64,000 bases of DNA from Flammulina velutipes (taxonomy: Eukaryota; Basidiomycota; Agaricomycetes; Agaricales; Physalacriaceae): positions 2,108,001-2,172,000 of the forward strand of contig CM022371.1 of the NCBI GenBank assembly GCA_011800155.1. Direction: 5' to 3'. The position numbers were made by a program, and so were the translations under genes. Shown here in pieces: positions 29,256 through 62,847 of the stretch (positions are counted from its first letter, which is position 1; the number at the start of each line of letters is the position of its first letter). Under the pieces are notes generated by a model. It was not told the DNA's origin, searched no databases, and saw only the letters and a program-made list of their open reading frames with translations.

Positions 29256-30681
29256 TTACAGTGAGTTGAGATTAAAATCACAGCCACGCCGGCGTCCACT
29301 GGGATACTGCCTAACACCAGCCTGGAAAGGCCGTGGCGGGGGGAAGTCTGTGACCGGGAAGGTATGGGAACCAGCATTAGGTGGTGGAGACGGAACTAGA
29401 CATCAAATGTCAGTAAAGAAAGACGGGAGTCAATATCAGCAACTGACTCTTTCTCTGTGGGCTTGTAGAACCGTTCGTAGGAGGTCTTGGTGGGATTGCA
29501 CTGCCCGCAGAGGCCACGCGCGGCCGCACAGGAGGAGTTGCCAACGGGCTCTGATGCGAAACAATAGGTGCGGCAGGAGGTTCCACTTGAGACAAAGCGC
29601 GCACTCTTGAAGGCGGAGCAGGAGGCGCATTCACAGTCGGTGGTACTTTTCTAGACGGCGGGGGCGGAGGAACTGCGCGTGACGGACCAGTACTCATAGG
29701 CCGTACTGGAGGTGCTGGTGGCGCCACACTACTAGGACGAGCAGGTGGTGCCGGTGGTGCTGCACTGCTAGGACGCGGTGGTGGTGCCACACTGTGAGGA
29801 CGAGTTGGCGGTGGCGGTGGCGCTCTACCAGGAAGAGTAGGTGGCTGAACGCTTGCACGTGCTGGAATAGCTGGAGGTAAACCACGACTTGGAGGTGCAG
29901 GAGCAGCAGAGGCTGGTCTAGGTGGCGGAGAAGTAGTCCGGGGAGGAAAAGCTGGTGAAGGACGTGCCGGAGGTGGCGGCGCTGAGTTTGGAGATGGTAC
30001 TTTTCTGCCAGGAGGAGGCGGTACAAGTCTAGATGGTGTATTAGGAGCAGATGGTGTAGGAACGATGCGAGATGGAAGTGATGGCGGGGCCGGAACTGTT
30101 CGGGACGGAAGGCTAGGAGCAGGTGGAGGTGTCGGGACTGATCGCGCTGGCGGTGCTGGTGGCGCAGGAGTCAAGCGGGAAGGCGCGGGAGGCGGTGCTG
30201 GCGCGACCCTAGCTGGTGGACCACGTGACGGAACACTGGGAGGAGGCGGTGCTCTGGGCGGTGGAGGCGCTCTGCCTGGCGGAGGTGGCGCTTTGGGAGT
30301 AGGAACGGCCCGCGATGGAGTAGCTGGAGGTGCAGGCGATGGCGGTGAATCACGCTTCGGTATCGACGGTGGTTTGCCCAATGTAGGCGCTTTGGCTGAT
30401 GATAATGTTAGAAGAAAGATTTACAGCTTTCAGTGGTACGAACCAAGATTGTTTTGACCTGCAGGCTTCAGTTTTGGCATTCCGCCAGCAAATAGGCCAC
30501 CCAGCTGTGGTGGTCCCCCTGCAGCAGGCATCGCAGACGCCGAGCCAGACGAAACAACATTTCGTCCGCCACCACCACCACCTTTAGCAATCTCTACGGC
30601 AGGCGCGCTGCGGTCATTCGTCTTTGCCTGCTTTAGCCTTTTACCAGCCTGGATCTCTTGTAGTAAAGCACTCGATGCCAT
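29256..30681 (-). CDS. VRP1: Verprolin / WASP-interacting protein (WIP) homolog
   Basis: Verprolins bind G-actin and hold WASP/Las17 to control Arp2/3-driven actin assembly in endocytosis. The N-terminus carries a WH2 actin-binding motif (ALLQEIQAGKRLKQAKTNDR) and then a Gly-rich stretch. An intron leads into a long proline-rich region of about 300 residues (repeated APPPPGRAPPPPRA and PPAPPARPSSVAPP types), suited to SH3 and profilin binding. A last intron joins a C-terminal exon reading SHTFPVTDFPPPRPFQAG and then YPSGRR, followed by CDFNLNSL. That FPPPRxF...YPSGR pattern is the WASP-binding end of WIP/verprolin. The opposite strand shows a long glycine-rich open frame that is only the mirror of the proline repeats. 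Confidence 0.88.
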
Positions 30682-54182: not shown

Positions 54183-54799
54183 GATGAGTGTGGCGGTCAA
54201 AGATGCATAGTGCCGGCCGGCTAACGTTGATTTGAAGCGGAGATTCAAGCTCATTCACTTGCGCCACACTTGCAACACGTTCTTGCTTTACGTCTTTGAT
54301 CCGATCAATCCAACGCCACTTTGCTGCTTGAAACGCCGGGCAAGTATTTCTGGTCTGGCCATGAACGCCTCGTGCAGTGGGTACGGCCTTCTGTTGACGC
54401 ATGCAAGCCGTGCGTTTGAAAGCACTCGGTATTGTGACCTAAATCGCCTTGCAAAACCGCAGCACTATTGCCGCTCCTTCGCAACGGAAGCTTGTTCACA
54501 ACCAAGACGTCTTCTCTAAAGTTTGTAGCCTCCCCACTCCTCTAATGGAAGTCGGCCTTATTGGACGTAACCACACTGCTCGGTATACAAAAAGCATTAC
54601 ATCCGTGCTTTCCGTGGATTGCCCGTGCTGCTCAAGTCTGCCTGCGCCACCCCTCTTTCCTCCTGCGTACATCGCGATTCCGCACTCTCCACCACTGCTC
54701 AGTCCGAGAAGCGTCGAATATTCATTAGGTGTGTATGATACATCCGGACCTCTTTCTCGTCTCTTCTACCATTTACCCTCTTCCTTGCAGCTGCACGCC
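54183..54799. other. Divergent intergenic region between CSN4 and a Ser/Pro-rich gene
   Basis: This 617-bp stretch lies between two divergent starts. An open frame runs through part of it in the same frame as the downstream gene (from 54449), but the upstream part has no family-like sequence and the first credible ATG is at 54800. I see no repeat or RNA gene. Confidence 0.45.
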
Positions 54800-55921
54800 A
54801 TGGACTTCAGTTTTGATAGCCCGTCCAATTCTCCCAGTCTTCTCTTTTCCGAGTTCAAGGCAAAGTTGGATCTTCCACCTACTCGTCGCTCTACCGTCGA
54901 CGTCTCAAGGTTCACCGAAGACGGCTTCAGTGATTTCGATCTCGACTTGGAATGTCTCTCCAGGTCGCCCTCGCCCTCTTCACCTGTCGCAAACTCCATC
55001 TCTTCCAACCCAGAGGATGCGTCGACCCCTTCTTTGAGTCCCCCGTCACCGACGCCTACTTCCCCCAACTCCCATGCCGTTAATATACCGTCCGCAAAGC
55101 TGTCTCCCGCCGCGGCTGCATCGGTTATTCGAGGGTCCTGGCCTCTCTATCGTTACGTTGGACGTGGCACACCAGTAGACCCTACCAGACGATCCCAATG
55201 GGGCGGGTACGAGGCCGCCGAAGACGGCACACTCCAATCAGGACATGTACGCTCAGCAAGCACGGATTCCACAGGCCGTCTTCCGCGTCGCTCAGTCTCC
55301 CCAGACTGGCATCACGTCTCTTCAGACTCTTCTCCCAGCGCACTCACCACCCAGCCGTCGTTCTTACTTCCAGAAGAATCTAAAATCCAGTTTGACGTAC
55401 AACCTACCGACCAATCGGAATGGGATAGCTTCATGAATACAGTTCTAGAGCCAGGGAAGAACGCCACGCCTCCCCCTCCGTCTCCGCCGCGCTCCCCTGT
55501 ACCACGTCGCCACTCTGGCGTCGGCGTAGTGGACTCACCGCTTGGGCCCGTCGATTCCAGTTCGCTGGAAATCGACTTGGGCTTGGATGCGGCGTTGGAC
55601 CTTGGGCTTGGGCTCGGCAGAGGTATGAATTGGTTCGAGTTGGGCATGCTTCCTAGCTCAGGCTTCGACTCTCCTTCAGTTTATTCATCGCCCCCAACAA
55701 CACCACGAAGGTCCCGGCCGGTGTCATTGGATGACTCGATGAACGGAATGATAAACCCAGTTACAGCAGAGAAGAGAAACTCGTTCACCAAAGGTCAATC
55801 TCAAGGCGGCGTTGTTGAGAAGGGGGTGGCGGAGGCCGAGGAACGCAGGGCGGAGGCGTGGTGGCGCAAACTTCTCGGAAAGCTCCGTAAACTGCAGTCC
55901 ATCTTGCGCAGGAAGACTTGA
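54800..55921 (+). CDS. Ser/Pro-rich, probably disordered protein of unknown function
   Basis: This single-exon gene encodes about 373 residues, and I do not recognise it. It opens MDFSFDSPSNSPSLLFSEF with acidic and hydrophobic residues. It then has many SP and TP sites (LSRSPSPSSPVANSISSNPE, LSPPSPTPTSPNS). In the middle is a more ordered piece, AASVIRGSWPLYRYVGRGTP. Further on there is a Leu/Gly/Asp repeat (EIDLGLDAALDLGLGLGRG) and SVYSSPPTTPRRSRPVSLDD. The C-terminus is basic and helical (EAWWRKLLGKLRKLQSIL followed by RRKT). It could bind membrane or nucleic acid through that basic helix, but this is speculation. The lack of introns is unusual among its neighbours. Confidence 0.65.
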   Translation: MDFSFDSPSNSPSLLFSEFKAKLDLPPTRRSTVDVSRFTEDGFSDFDLDLECLSRSPSPSSPVANSISSNPEDASTPSLSPPSPTPTSPNSHAVNIPSAKLSPAAAASVIRGSWPLYRYVGRGTPVDPTRRSQWGGYEAAEDGTLQSGHVRSASTDSTGRLPRRSVSPDWHHVSSDSSPSALTTQPSFLLPEESKIQFDVQPTDQSEWDSFMNTVLEPGKNATPPPPSPPRSPVPRRHSGVGVVDSPLGPVDSSSLEIDLGLDAALDLGLGLGRGMNWFELGMLPSSGFDSPSVYSSPPTTPRRSRPVSLDDSMNGMINPVTAEKRNSFTKGQSQGGVVEKGVAEAEERRAEAWWRKLLGKLRKLQSILRRKT

Positions 55922-56554: not shown

Positions 56555-59500
56555 ATGTCTCGACTCACGGCTTCCCCCTTCACCAAGCCTTCTGCTCTCG
56601 AATTCTCTCGTAGCACAGCGACGCCTGCAGAGACTCTCATGTCTGACCCGTTCGGCCACTCGCAGTCAATGTCCGTTGCTGGTCCTCCTGATCTTCCCCG
56701 TGCTTTCGACAACGACTCTATCTCCTCTGCCCAGGTGGCCGACCCCGGAGCACGTTTTCGTCGTGTCTCTTCCCTCGCGTACCATTCTTCTGGGCTGCGT
56801 GAGACGCGAGAACGCTCCGCTCAACGAAATTTCAAGTCATTCATAATCGTTATTCCGCCGACTTCGCTGGTTCATGAATACGGGCCCCTTGGTCATACCT
56901 TATCGTCGGGGCCACCCCATAGACTCGGGCAAGGGCTGCTCATGCCACTATTCCCAACTGTACGTCCAACTTGCTCGACAAATCATTCTTAGTTTTGACC
57001 ATAATCCTAGATGTATGGACAACTAACTGCAATTGCGCGAGAGTTCAATTTCCCCAGCACCGCCGGGTTATGCATCTATCTTCACCATTCGGATAATGGC
57101 ATCACATTCACTCCCCGAATATCGGACGATACCTGGGGGCAGCTATGGGCACCAATGGCAGAGGGTGCGCATCAGGCACCTGGGGGCTTGAAACCACCAA
57201 TCTGTGGTAGAATAGAGTTCGACATTGACCCGCAGATGGCCCGCTGGTATAGTTCCTGGCTCTCGTCTTCACAGCGGAATCCAGTCGAGTCGATGTCGCA
57301 GCCGATCAATGCTCACGTTCGTGCCAGCAGCCGCACGACTTACGACTCTGCGACAGTTGACGAGCAGCACGAGCGCCCATCCAGGCCACGCCACATTCCT
57401 CGAAAACTATCTCTTGTAGATCGCTTCGACGTTGCTTCCGTATTGACCACTAGACCTCCAGCGGGGAACACTTCTATGACCCCTCCAGAGGGAACATCTA
57501 CAACAGCTCTGTCGCCCATCTATCAGACCGAGGAACCTCTTTCGGCCAAAGTCGATCTCGAGAGCAGAGTTAGGTCATGGCGAGCCAGCGCCAAACTCGA
57601 GCCTACACATTTGGCGGCGATGGGCCAGACCAGTCTTGAGCCTGCTAACATGCCAAATGCTTTACCATTGGAGGAAGTGGAGACCTTTGATGGCTCAGAC
57701 GATGAGGAGCCTCTTCGGTTGGAAGATTTTACGTGGTCCATTTCATCGAAGGGTCCGGGCAGCGAAATTTTGGATTCGCCAACATCCGTCAGCTACATCC
57801 AGTCGGTACACATTGATGCTCGCGCTGCAGGGTCCGTATGCATGACGCCGTCCGTGTGCACCTCCTTCGGACCTTCGGATTACACTCTGTCGCCACTCTC
57901 AGAGCCCAGCTTCCGCATCGCAACCCCAGATCTTGCTCTGCGGTTCTACGAGGACGTGCCATCTACGCCTTCCACAGCCACCAGCTGGGGACCGCGCTCG
58001 GTTGATTCGTACGAATACATGATTGACGAAGACGATATGATTTCTCTGGACATTGGTCAGCGCATGGTTTTGAGCCCGCCTGATAGCCCGTGTACCACGA
58101 CAAGTTGGGGGCCGGGTTCGTGCCCCCCGTCACCCGTTTCGGATATTCGCGCACCGTCTGTTGATCTGGGGGCTCGCGGGGTATTCAGTTGTCCTCCTAC
58201 CCCATCAACTGCAACTTCGTGGGGTGCCCCGCTCTCGTACCCACCAAGTCCATCAACCCCATTTTATGTCTCAACCCCAGACGCGGGGGCTCGTAACTTT
58301 GATATCGACCTCTCTTCCGATGTCCAGCTCAGAGCCATTCATCAAAGCGCTCCTTGGGCGCAGGTAGAATCCCCATCTGAAGAAAGAGGGAGGATGCCTT
58401 GGCCTCATGTCTGGCCATACAGCCCGAAACGAGATGCTTTCGTCAAGGGAGCCGCACAATCTCAGTCGCAAGTCACTACTGTCAACTATCCCAGTCTTGT
58501 CATTTGTGAGTCATTACGTGAACCACTTTTTATGCATCTCACAGATTTGTAGATGCTCCGCTGTACCCACACTTTGATCTATATCCCGCACCGGCTTGCA
58601 TTGACATCGCACAACCAGCTCGGGGAGGCCCAAATACCGTTAGGCTGCCGATTTCGTACAACAACTTCAATTTGTGTACGTTAGCCATGTTACATGAAGT
58701 CCATTCAAAAGCTAATACTTCCCCAGCTGGCGCTGTATATCCATACAACCTGAACGAAATCTATCCGGCATCTAAGGTCGTCAACCGGTCCCCAAAGCTC
58801 TCGTCGCACACATTATCTTCGGCCAGCTACCCCAGCCTCGTTATATGTAAGTCCTTGCGTGCATACTTTGTTGGCTATAGCAATCTAACAGTGTCCAGAT
58901 GCTCCCGTGTATCCGTACCTTGACTTGTATCCTGCACCTGCTTGCGCAAATATCTCGGTCCCGCCAAAGTCTCTCCAGCTTATTCAACGTCAACGCTCGT
59001 CCATCTCTACCAGGCTACCGACCGTGTACCCGAACTTCAACCTGTGTAAGCCCTGCCAATTTCTGTCGCACAAATAACCTAATGCGTACTTACATAGACC
59101 CTGCGTTGTACCCTCACAATCTGGGTGAAATATATGGCGCCTCCCCCGCTACCGAGAGTCACATCATTGATGTTACCGTTGCCTCGCAGTACCCAATCTT
59201 CAACCTCTGTGAGCGTTTCTGAATTCGCAGTAAAGTAATCAACTAACCATCAATAGACCCTGCTGTCTACCCATACGTTACACCGTATCCTTCGTCGCTC
59301 GTAATGGAACCATTGGTGGTGAATCACATTCGTGGTAACTCGGCAGGCTATCCTGATTTCAACCTGTGTAAGTGGAAAAGACTATTTCCCATCTCTATTG
59401 GACTAACTGAATCCCATAGACCCGGCCGTTAACAAGCAAAGTGTTGCTCCCATTAGGAGCTATGGTTATCCGGATTTCGTTCTTTGTGCGTCTCTGAACT

Positions 59501-61780
59501 GCGTTTACCTTATCAAGTGTTGACCAAACAAGCAGACGAGCCAATTGAACGCCAAACCGTTGTGCAGAACGTATGTAGGACCAAGACTTTCAAGCAATCA
59601 CCCGTCAAATATGGTTCTCAATACCCTTCATTCAACCTGTGTACGTTCGACTGCATGGGTGTTGATGTTTATTAACGAACAACTTCTTCAGATCCAGCAG
59701 TATATCCTCACTTCGATCTCTATCCGTCAGTCGACATGAATCTGGAGGAAAAATTGACTGCGCCAGTCCGAATCGAATTGGGAACAATGGTGTACCCAGT
59801 GTTACAAATTTGTAAGCTATCCATCGACATGCACCTACGTCTTCACTAATCCTGTATTTTCAGATCGTCCGGCTTATCCATATCTTGAATTGTATCCTTC
59901 CTTGCCCGAGGACATCTTCCACAAGAAGGAAGCGTCAAAATATAGCTATCGCTCTGCAACTGCGTATCCGACATTCAACCTATGTACGTTCTCCCATCTC
60001 TCCGTATGTCCCATTTCCTGACAAAGCCAAAGATCCTGCTGTATATCCTCACTTCGATCTCTACCCAACGGTTCAACCTGGCAAGGATGTAGTGGATACT
60101 CGCGAATCAAGCTCCCAAATGACAGTTCAATATCCGTATTTCAACCTGTGTAAGTGGATGGAGTCTGTCATACACCCGACCTTCCGACAAACCATTTTTC
60201 TTAGATCCTGCTGTGTATCCCCACTTTGATCTCTATCCAACGGTCCAGGTCTGGAAGGGTACAGTGGACACTAAGGAATCGAGCCTCCAGGCGTCAGTTC
60301 AATATCCATTCTTCAACCTGTGTAAGTGCACGCGGCTTGACCCGTGCTCGACTTTCTAACCCATCTTTCTTCTTGTAATTAGATCCCGCTGTGTATCCTC
60401 ACTTTGATCTCTATCCGACGGTACCGGTTTGGAAGGCTAGAGTGACTACTCAGGATTCGAACTTCCAGGCGTCACTTGCATATCCGTTCTTCAACCTGTG
60501 TAGGTGCCTACATGTATCTCAAACCCGACCTTCTAACGCGTCTTTGCTTTCAGATCCTGCCGTGTACCCTCACTTCGATCTGTATCCTGTCGCTGGGCCA
60601 GTCATAGAGCCCTCCGTGAAATTGCAGTGCACGGTATCAGCTGCGAACGTCGTGTATCCGTACTTGACTATCTGTGAGTGCCCAAAACGCTCGCAATTCT
60701 TTTGAAAAACTGAGTATTGTCGAGATCCCGCTGTATATCCTCATTTCGATCTATGGGCAGCTCCGTCTGCTTCTCGGATGCAGATTCTTGTGCGAAAGCC
60801 CCAACAACTTCAGCCTATGGCCATCCAGAGGAAATCTTCTCTACGCTCCCCAACCAGGGCTACGTCCAAGGCGCACCTCCAACTGCACAACGAAGTGTGG
60901 CTTGCAGAAATGATGAAGGGTACGCAAGTGAAGACCTCTTATCCAGTGGTAGTTCCTCCTGTTGTTCCCGCTGTTGTCCCCCCCGTCGTCATCGCATCAC
61001 CCGTTGCTGCTGCTCCTGTGGTAGCTCCTCCCGCGGTTGTTCCCGTCATTGCATCTCCCGTCGTGGCTCCTGTGGCTCCTTCCAGCGCCCCCGCTCCCGC
61101 TCCCCTTGGACCTTCCCCTGCCGCCATCAGGCCTTCTGTCCAGACCTCCGCACCGTTCCAGCCTGTCACCACTGCTCCCTCTCCCTTACGAGTACGGAGC
61201 AGGACGTCGGTTGCAGGTTTACCAGCTAGCCCTTCCCCTCCGTCGCGAAGTCTGCCTCCCGTGACTGCGCCTCCTCCAAACCGTGCTCTTCCAAGGCGTC
61301 CAGATGGTTCGCCTTCCGAAGCGTCCCCGGTCCTACGCAGGAGTGTTGCATTCGACCCCCGAGGACCTCTTCCATCTCGGCCAGATGTTCATCGAGTTAG
61401 TAGCTTGAACGGCCGTGTGGGATCTATGTATGCTAGTGGGCGACGAGGGGAGCTCCCGTCTCTCCCTGTGGTCGATGAGGCTTTGACGCGGACTAACTCT
61501 CTGAACGTTCCACCGACGCAGCTCGGGCAGCAAAGAGAACTTTCGCGGTCTCAATCTGTATCGTCGCCCAACCGACCTGTGCATGTGCGTAAACGAGACA
61601 GTCTTGTACTTCAACGAGTCAAGGCTATTAATTCTGGATATCCTGCTGCTGGTACGTGCTATTGAACTTATAATATCGGCTGTAATCTGACTATGCAACG
61701 CAGGTGAAGAACGACAACACGGGCGTTCGTTAGACATGTTAGACAACTTTCCTGCACCGCCCGTCCATACACGGCATTAG
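56555..61780 (+). CDS. Large protein with a conserved N-terminal domain and a 14-unit YPxFxL repeat region
   Basis: I do not recognise a described function. My splice model has 17 exons: 56555-56959, 57011-58505, thirteen repeat exons (58553-60673), 60725-61651 and 61704-61780. It gives 1465 residues with phase kept throughout. The N-terminal domain contains RNFKSFIIVIPPTSLVHEYG and LLMPLFPTMYGQLTAIAREF, then NFPSTAGLCIYLHHSDNGIT and ICGRIEFDIDPQMARWYSSW. It looks conserved and globular. A Ser/Thr/Pro region follows with three TSWG repeats. Then comes an array of about 40-residue repeats, most opening YPAVYPHFDLYP and closing YPxFNL. A low-complexity Pro/Val/Ala tract (VVVPPVVPAVVPPVV) leads to a basic Ser/Pro-rich end, LDMLDNFPAPPVHTRH. 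No signal peptide or membrane helix is seen, so it is probably cytoplasmic. The YPxL and YPxFxL motifs resemble ligands of ALIX/Rim20/Bro1 V domains, an inference developed in the findings. Confidence 0.8.
57958..58240 (+). repeat. Three dispersed TPSTATSWG-type peptide repeats
   Basis: Within the large second exon the coding sequence repeats a short block: PSTPSTATSWGPRS near 57958, PDSPCTTTSWGPGSCPPSP near 58078, and PPTPSTATSWGAPLSYPPSP near 58195. The three share T-S-W-G preceded by a Ser/Thr-Pro run. They sit in a presumably disordered region just before the YP-repeat exons and could be recurring phosphorylation or docking sites. Confidence 0.6.
58553..60760 (+). repeat. Tandem array of symmetrical phase 1-1 repeat exons
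   Basis: Thirteen exons in a row: 58553-58675, 58727-58846, 58899-59045, 59098-59208, 59257-59367, 59420-59485, 59536-59640, 59692-59811, 59864-59983, 60033-60149, 60205-60321, 60383-60499, 60554-60673. The head of a fourteenth unit starts at 60725. Every exon length is a multiple of three (66-147 nt), every intron is phase 1, and introns are 47-61 nt. Nearly all junctions split a Tyr codon (T|AT or T|AC); the junction entering 58727 gives Ser. Units 10-12 (117 nt each) are nearly the same and look recently duplicated. Unit 6 (66 nt) is shortened, and unit 7 has lost its YPAVYP head. Confidence 0.85.
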
Positions 61781-61823: not shown

Positions 61824-62847
61824 TTAATCTTCGTCATCGCTTATTGGCATAGGTTCGCTCGAGGCGCCTGCGGGGGCACCCAAGATATGACCAGAACCTG
61901 GCATGTTTGCAGTAGGCTCTGGTGAAGGTGACTCCACGACAGCCCTTTCTCGAGCAGCGGCCATGGCGACAGCATGAGCCTCCCTCCGCTCTTTCTCTCG
62001 CCGGTCATGATCCATCTTGCTCTTTCTGTCATCCATGAAGGCCAATTTAACCTGCACAGCCAGCAGTGAGAATGGAGGAGCAACAGAATATCGAAGCCTG
62101 CGTACCCGGTTCGCAGCAGCGAGTCTCGCCTCCTTCTCTGACTCTTTCCCTACCTTCAGTCGTGCTTGCTTTTCCGCCTCCAAGTTTATTGTCTCTTTCA
62201 AGATGGCCTACAGAATGTTGAGCGCATCATAGGAAGAGGGGACCAATGTGGCGTACAGTTCCAATCTTGAGATCTTCAAGGCGTCTTGGATTCCAGCTGT
62301 AGTAAGGCTGGAAGTTGTCGACCTGGATGGTGATATAAGAGGAAACACAATCTGCAAGTGCACTAGACGCACCTCGGGACGGAATCCAAGCTAAGAGATG
62401 AGCACAAACCAAGAGATGAAATGGCAGATATGACTGACCTCGATAGCATACTCCAGCGTCCCCTTCGGCTCGACAAGATTGCGCTTGATGATAGTGTTAG
62501 TTGGCTTGAATTGGTGGTACTTTGGATTCTCGGGTTCACGAAGAATGTTCTCGGAGATGGTCAAGAGCGTCTGAGATTGAGTTTAACGACCTGTAGAAGA
62601 ATCCGCGTATCGATATTACTTTGAGAGACGCGAATGCCTGTTCCTTTGAATTCGGTCTTATTATGCCAGGATCTATCATCCGTCGGAATAGCAGCTGCCT
62701 TTCGCGCTGGCGAGCCATTTCGGCGGCGGATGGCTGTGGCGGCAATGCCCGCGTGCGTCGCTCGACGGCCTCTGCCAATGTTTCCGGTGATACATGCGAC
62801 GAGCTCGCTGTCTCCGGCGCCATCTGTTCGTCGTTCTGCTCAGACAT
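61824..62847 (-). CDS. PUB-domain protein, probable Cdc48/p97 cofactor
   Basis: PUB domains bind the C-terminal tail of the AAA ATPase p97/Cdc48, as in peptide:N-glycanase and UBXD1. The start MSEQNDEQMAPETASSSHVS leads into a charged region (RQRERQLLFRRMIDPGIIRP). The PUB domain follows: TLLTISENILREPENPKYHQ, then FKPTNTIIKRNLVEPKGTLE, then YAIELGFRPEV, and FQPYYSWNPRRLEDLKIG. After it comes a highly charged coiled coil (NLEAEKQARLKVGKESEKEA) and the acidic tail PISDDED. No UBX domain or transglutaminase core is present. Five or so introns. A hAT-type MITE is inserted 51 bp upstream of the start codon, so its promoter or 5' UTR has been altered relative to an empty allele. Confidence 0.78.

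Follow-up and report, generated by a model that had tools for sequence, protein, structure and literature searches.

Gene and exon organization

The window analyzed here, a 64,000-nucleotide stretch of the Flammulina velutipes genome (contig CM022371.1, positions 2,108,001 to 2,172,000 of the forward strand), contains on its plus strand, at 56555..61780 of the window, a gene of 17 exons encoding a predicted protein of 1465 residues, in which 13 consecutive exons form a tandem array of Tyr-Pro-rich repeats. When joined, the predicted exons give a single open frame of 1465 codons, from an ATG at 56555 to a TAG at 61778-61780. The start matches the family consensus MSxLTxSPF, and the best relative, a protein of Hymenopellis radicata (P0001), shares 48% identity over 100% of the query; judged by these sequence comparisons, the 17-exon model represents a real gene.

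Exons 1 (56555-56959) and 2 (57011-58505) encode the N-terminal part of the protein, and exons 16 (60725-61651) and 17 (61704-61780) the C-terminal part. Between them, the gene model and a repeat search delimit the array of exons 3-15 with their introns (58553..60673): exons 3 (58553-58675), 4 (58727-58846), 5 (58899-59045), 6 (59098-59208), 7 (59257-59367), 8 (59420-59485), 9 (59536-59640), 10 (59692-59811), 11 (59864-59983), 12 (60033-60149), 13 (60205-60321), 14 (60383-60499) and 15 (60554-60673). The repeat exons measure 66-147 nt; all 13 are divisible by three and all 13 are in phase 1 at both ends, and any of them fits beside any other. Introns 2-15 are 47-61 nt long with GT..AG borders. 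Intron 1 is in phase 0 and introns 2-16 are all in phase 1. Of the 14 junctions flanking exons 3-15, 13 (introns 2 and 4-15) split a Tyr codon, and the one at intron 3 splits a Ser codon.

These features agree with the first-pass annotation of this DNA, which had described 13 tandem, symmetrical, frame-neutral single-repeat exons with Tyr at nearly all junctions. Its span of 58553..60760 is correct for exons 3-15; the final segment, 60725..60760 (plus strand), forms the first residues of exon 16, where a half unit (YPAVYPHFDLWA) ends the array without being a repeat exon. A 13/13 phase match would have a chance of 6e-7 if phases were independent, a figure that mainly shows the kinship of the exons, because copies of one exon inherit its phase. 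The repeat exons are mutually homologous and most share common ends, as in tandem duplication of a symmetrical exon, with exons 8 and 9 degenerate.

A protein family of mushroom-forming fungi

Homology searches identified 264 relatives at an E-value of 0.001, and the homologue counts and comparisons given here refer to the best 120 of these. Genera among these 120 include Mycena, Armillaria, Lentinula, Suillus, Amanita, Sanghuangporus, Gloeophyllum, Trametes and Amylostereum, together with others. All four species whose taxonomy was checked, Guyanagaster necrorhizus (Agaricales), Suillus lakei (Boletales), Amylostereum chailletii (Russulales) and Sanghuangporus baumii (Hymenochaetales), are Agaricomycetes, as presumably are the remaining named relatives. 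The proteins are designated 'hypothetical' or 'uncharacterized protein' or have been named automatically, for example 'salivary gland secretion 1'. This protein and four relatives matched nothing in Pfam above cut-off; PF19063, precomputed for the homologue P0035, was set aside at 16 bits against a cut-off of 25. A sequence search of the PDB with profile A1 returned 0 matches at E 0.1, 31 pattern matches in viral contigs included 0 relatives, and four motif strings of the family had no match in the literature searched. As far as these searches reach, the earlier statement that no function is described for such a gene stands. We regard these proteins as a large, undescribed family of mushroom-forming fungi distributed over several orders; this family, with its folded N-terminal domain and its presence in many Agaricomycete genera, had been overlooked by the first-pass annotation.

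The repeat unit and its Tyr-Pro motif

The most conserved part of the repeat is a block, YPxFNL^YPAVYPHFDLYP, that spans the intron (^) and has the consensus YPx[FL][ND][LI]-YPAVYPH[FL][DE][LI]YP. The intron cuts the block behind the first Leu/Ile, within the Tyr codon, and the motif is completed by splicing, as had been proposed. Each exon contains, in order, the second part of a block, a spacer of lower conservation and the first part of the next block. The initial description of every exon as one whole repeat captures the modular layout, but the conserved block straddles the intron, the register is a matter of choice, and in exons 8 and 9 the second block half is missing. Exon 8 is the shortest repeat exon (22 residues) and has a degenerate block; with the adjacent exon 9 it is perhaps a decaying pair in mid-array.

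A block profile made from 736 blocks of 120 of the 121 proteins, and run on those same proteins with a lenient score limit, detects 4-23 blocks per protein (median 12; median spacing 39 residues), the low counts possibly including truncated proteins. It detects 12 blocks in the F. velutipes protein. The block regular expression fixes several hydrophobic and Tyr positions, and independent evidence comes only from the free positions: Pro at +1 (99%), Pro at +7 (83%), Asp, Glu or Asn at +14 (84%) and Tyr at +16 (95%). Of 2270 occurrences of YPx[FLIVM]x[LIV], 2123 are followed by Tyr, and aligned relatives preserve the order YPxFxLYPAVYPxFDLYP. In the F. velutipes protein, Leu or Ile follows at +3, +4 or +5 in 27 of 47 YP pairs, 22 of these at +5. 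Across the 121 proteins, 3217 of the 5233 YP pairs past residue 400 have a YPx(1-3)[LI] core, compared with about 33% expected from the Leu plus Ile share of the tail (12.6%). The tail contains 13.2% Pro and 11.6% Tyr, with 44 YP in 517 residues. In an AlphaFold2 model of the homologue P0050, the predicted local distance difference test (pLDDT) score of the repeat region is 31-52 in 10-residue means, and the tail is predicted to be disordered and accessible.

Age of the intron position

Reading through a phase-1 intron of the form T|GT...AG|A(T/C) whose length is a multiple of three converts Tyr to Cys, followed by intron-coded residues and Asp. Such a footprint, Cys-(15 or 17 residues)-Asp in place of Tyr exactly at the L^Y site, was found in 7 of the 120 relatives, namely in Guyanagaster, Favolaschia, Arthromyces, Lentinula, two Suillus and Amylostereum, which span Agaricales, Boletales and Russulales. 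In all seven, Asp stands immediately before P-x-[VLA]-YP. Including Cys and Asp, the footprints comprise 17 or 19 residues, equivalent to introns of 48 or 54 nt and inside the length range seen in F. velutipes.

The footprint pattern itself required Asp or Asn at its end. Cys occupies the junction at 14 places, of which 7 fit the pattern and 7 do not (P0031, P0074, P0086, the first in P0088, the first in P0092, P0095 and P0108); two of the latter terminate in the next 20 residues, as expected if the sequence were read unspliced. A wider pattern accepting any residues gave 75 matches, including 58 that end in Tyr and are ordinary repeats; among the 17 without the junction Tyr, Cys..Asp occurs 7 times and every other pair at most twice. 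Because the footprints fall on the identical codon in three orders, the intron position is old, and the same Tyr codon appears to be intron-split in all three. Annotation error is the probable origin of the footprints and true intron retention a possible one; in both cases the intron position is marked.

Changes in repeat number

The youngest copies are exons 12-14 with introns 12-14 (60033..60553, plus strand), where Tandem Repeats Finder reports a 172-nt array. The exons show 73-84% mutual identity, and the spacing of 172 and 178 nt indicates that exon and intron were duplicated together, in units of about 172-178 nt. When the 91 intron pairs are ranked by similarity after trimming of the splice sites, 13/14 comes first and 12/14 second, with 0 and 4 of 1000 shuffles, respectively, scoring as high. 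An earlier global comparison placed introns 2/4 first (z 4.2), followed by 3/10 (3.8), 12/14 (3.1) and 13/14 (2.6). Since single intron pairs are noisy, agreement with the exons is what counts, and it indicates that exons 13-14 were copied with their introns, as exon 12 probably was as well. Intron copying is seen for these youngest copies only, older pairs giving no clear signal. A candidate for an older event lies at 58506..59208 (plus strand), where the likeness of introns 2/4 and exons 3/5, and weakly of exons 4/6, suggests a copy of two exons at once; in the splice-site-trimmed ranking the intron 2/4 signal is weak, being reached by 31 of 1000 shuffles for one of 91 pairs.

Compared with the Hymenopellis protein, exons 6, 7, 9 and 15 are closer to a Hymenopellis unit than to any unit of their own array (exon 6 narrowly), and exons 3, 4, 5, 8 and 10-14 are closer to their own (exon 4 narrowly), the imperfect cutting of the Hymenopellis units, which left four pieces of 10 residues, lowering scores against exons 10-12. 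Exons 12-14 and the Hymenopellis units H14-H16 are each most like their own neighbors. In an alignment of 12 chosen protein pairs, four of six Suillus pairs differ by whole units (40, 42, 43 or 121 residues, i.e., one unit or three), and one Lentinula pair shows a whole-unit difference of 92 residues. Blocks counted in the proteins, from which exon numbers in other fungi are deduced, range over 12-17 in Suillus, 8-19 in Mycena and 11-15 in Lentinula and number 11 in all three Sanghuangporus proteins. The whole-unit differences and the likeness of neighbors therefore indicate gain and loss of units at the genomic level, some units having stayed in position, and repeat number seems to change by exon copying in DNA rather than by splicing.

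Other parts of the protein and the neighborhood

The 67-protein alignment and the seven proteins read individually share one order of parts: the N-terminal domain, the RHVPRKLSLVDR motif, PSTATSWG repeats, PWxHVWPY motifs, the YP array and short C-terminal motifs, all on the plus strand here. The conserved N-terminal domain (residues 96-223) is encoded at 56840..57274 and split by intron 1 (56960-57010). In the P0050 model, residues 91-230 have 10-residue mean pLDDT values of 54-95 (73-95 outside dips at 111-120, 181-190 and 221-230), and this model with its fold matches predicts a single folded domain of the ubiquitin-like beta-grasp type. The predicted domain shares its strand-strand-helix-strand-strand-helix-strand order and fold with PB1, RA/RBD and ubiquitin-like (UBL) domains. 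In a comparison with PB1, the beta-grasp fold is present, there is no Pfam match, and the acidic residues of the OPCA motif are only partly present by eye.

A paralogous gene with the same beta-grasp domain and without YP repeats lies elsewhere in the genome (C2:685.0-687.5 kb). It belongs to a second family widespread in Agaricomycetes, whose predicted structures fold like the N-terminal domain and some of whose members are labelled 'proteophosphoglycan ppg4'; this name and 'salivary gland secretion 1' are automatic. In the available part of one Laccaria study, 'proteophosphoglycan ppg4' is listed in a screen table (PMC5604158). The domain also had a weak match at C9 (E 0.08), where a six-frame reading by eye showed no such domain.

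Downstream of the domain follow the conserved RHIPRKLSLVDR motif (57389..57424; family consensus RHVPRKLSLVDR), short repeats of the (S/T)PSTATSWG type in exon 2 (57968..58234 from first to last copy), several of which appear in the family consensus, and, directly before the array, a PWPHVWPY motif (58397..58426) that has several copies in some relatives. The general form PWxHxWPY occurs once here and is repeated several times upstream of the YP array in P0006, P0011 and P0015; it seems to represent a further array of short motifs in this protein, one that varies independently. Beyond the YP array lie the conserved stretch KAHLQLHNEVWL (60868..60903; consensus KxHxxLHxxVF), corresponding to a helix at 1002-1009 in the P0050 model, and RKRDSLVLQRVKAIN near the C terminus (61588..61632; consensus RDSLVLQRxRA). 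Exon 16 also includes a low-complexity Val/Pro/Ala-rich stretch at 60937-61119 (PVVVPPVVPAVVPP...).

Just upstream of the gene, a Ser/Pro-rich open frame of 492 residues (54443-55921, plus strand) is probably a separate gene, and a charged frame near the 3' end (61824-62207, minus strand) is possibly part of a convergent neighbor. Tandem repeats with units of 27 and 36 nt (79-80% matches) occur at 29711-29813.

Comparison with known systems

In the available part of a report on teleost piccolo b (PMC3484663), an amplified zinc-finger exon is present in 8-16 tandem copies, for which unequal crossing-over was proposed; every adjacent splice product was present in the main samples, where products of skipping were few, some also being seen in other tissues. 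On that description, the F. velutipes array closely resembles piccolo b in having tandem copies of one exon with conserved ends and middles diverged in sequence and length. It differs in that piccolo b has folded zinc fingers in one fish gene, whereas here short motifs cut by introns lie in a disordered tail and occur in many fungal genera. Literature searches found no title on tandem exon arrays in fungi. The architecture is of a known kind; the protein family, the fungal setting and the intron splitting the motif are new.

For the motif itself, the nearest comparison is YPx(n)L, in which n is 1-3. Known ligands of this type carry one to few motifs, and the fungal protein PalA reportedly reads YPXL/I. 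In the available parts of two reports, YPx(n)L is the ligand of ALIX V domains, as in p9 of equine infectious anemia virus (YPDL) and p6 of human immunodeficiency virus type 1 (PMC3907061, PMC7923801). Like the ligands of ALIX, Bro1 and PalA, the present motif has Tyr-Pro with Leu or Ile three to five places on, in a disordered protein; unlike them, it occurs more than 20 times, with a near-fixed Tyr after Leu/Ile and often Phe at +3, and its binding is hypothetical.

Proposed function and alternative explanations

The combination of a folded N-terminal head with a disordered tail and many copies of a strict motif matches the plan of a multivalent docking scaffold, which leads to the docking interpretation. 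The gene product would be a scaffold or adaptor anchored to something by its N-terminal beta-grasp domain, and its long tail would present, for docking, an array of Tyr-Pro motifs of the form YPx[FL]x[LI]Y, mostly with two in each unit. Any exon would fit beside any other, splicing would restore the block, and the exons would be spliced constitutively. Unequal crossing-over between adjacent exon-plus-intron units would make the array grow or shrink, and array size would set the number of docking sites (valency) in each lineage, valency being the selected property. Constitutive splicing, unequal crossing-over, the docking function and selection on valency are what we infer; a scaffold with a multivalent docking tail whose array changes by unequal crossing-over is, overall, a reasonably probable account.

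Several observations weigh against this account. Docking is deduced from pattern and disorder alone, and structural roles or condensate formation are frequent among disordered repeat proteins. Out-of-register alignment among proteins of differing repeat number may account for part of the low pLDDT in the repeats. The footprints, possibly annotation errors, locate the intron and are silent on transcript splicing. No clear resemblance is seen between introns 12 and 13 (z 1.5; outside the best 12 of 91 pairs), the 3/10 pair (z 3.8) was not predicted, comparisons at such length being noisy, and 7 of the 12 aligned protein pairs lack a whole-unit difference.

The first-pass annotation had taken the design to serve repeat-number variants through splicing; on that view, cells would skip or choose repeat exons to obtain stage-dependent repeat numbers. 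Frame-neutral, interchangeable exons would allow this, introns 3, 4, 7, 12 and 14 (5 of the 14 introns 2-15) lack an in-frame stop, introns 3 and 14 having lengths divisible by three as well, and an intron is read through in the seven annotated homologues with footprints. However, exon symmetry follows from copying one exon, intron retention differs from exon skipping, and the differences in repeat number, as far as these data show, are encoded in DNA, with introns copied along with exons, and are seen between species. No evidence of splice isoforms was found among these proteins, a weak test, since their clustering at 90% identity could hide isoforms within species. Fifteen of the 120 homologues, with 951-1617 residues predicted on contigs of 3.9-7.9 kb, are as spliced RNA would give, their sources being stated only as 'lgn' or 'jgi' without the nature of the material; P0108, which is among these fifteen, breaks off shortly past a read-through into L^C, the result expected of unspliced DNA or RNA. 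Introns as short as those here point to intron rather than exon recognition, with which skipping is uncommon. In the available part of a Yarrowia study, intron retention dominated alternative splicing, affecting 76 genes, compared with 4 for exon skipping (PMC2911113). A literature search on exon skipping in Agaricomycetes surfaced only work on Cordyceps. The splicing proposal is unsupported here, and we consider a splice-variant generator improbable.

The tail could instead act through weak aromatic stickers and spacers in a structural or condensate protein, for example at the septal pore, with no single pocket reading the motif. Its Pro, Tyr and YP content and predicted disorder suit such a role, and disordered, sometimes proline-rich proteins collect at septal pores according to the available part of one report (PMC10023807). 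The motif is nevertheless stricter than stickers need, with its near-invariant following Tyr and preserved block order, and this explanation seems rather unlikely. An array of YxxPhi sorting signals read by clathrin adaptor mu subunits is very unlikely: tetrapeptides of this kind (YPAV, YPHF, YPSL) occur in most units, but YxxPhi requires neither Pro at the second place nor Leu/Ile and Tyr at the sixth and seventh, all of which are kept here. A reading of YPAV as an Atg8-interacting motif (LC3-interacting region) was set aside, Pro directly behind the aromatic residue being disfavored in such motifs. If the docking account is followed, the V domain of Bro1 or Rim20 would be a guess at the partner, and a doubtful one, because the near-fixed second Tyr and the frequent Phe at +3 lie outside the known ligand; this genome has two V-domain loci, as expected of a fungus. 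It is similarly doubtful that the protein is a dedicated multivalent Bro1/Rim20-binding scaffold, with a beta-grasp domain and 10-20 late-domain-like YPx3L blocks, a valency evolving exon by exon and each site spliced complete.

Significance

Repeat arrays built exon by exon are best known from animals. The present gene provides a fungal example in which three or more orders have retained the intron site and every intron cuts a short, sharply defined motif at the same codon. The family offers a natural series of proteins with differing block numbers, which could be used to test the effects of motif number. As an unnamed family present in many mushroom genera, it may provide a connection between a ubiquitin-like domain and either membrane trafficking or hyphal structure.

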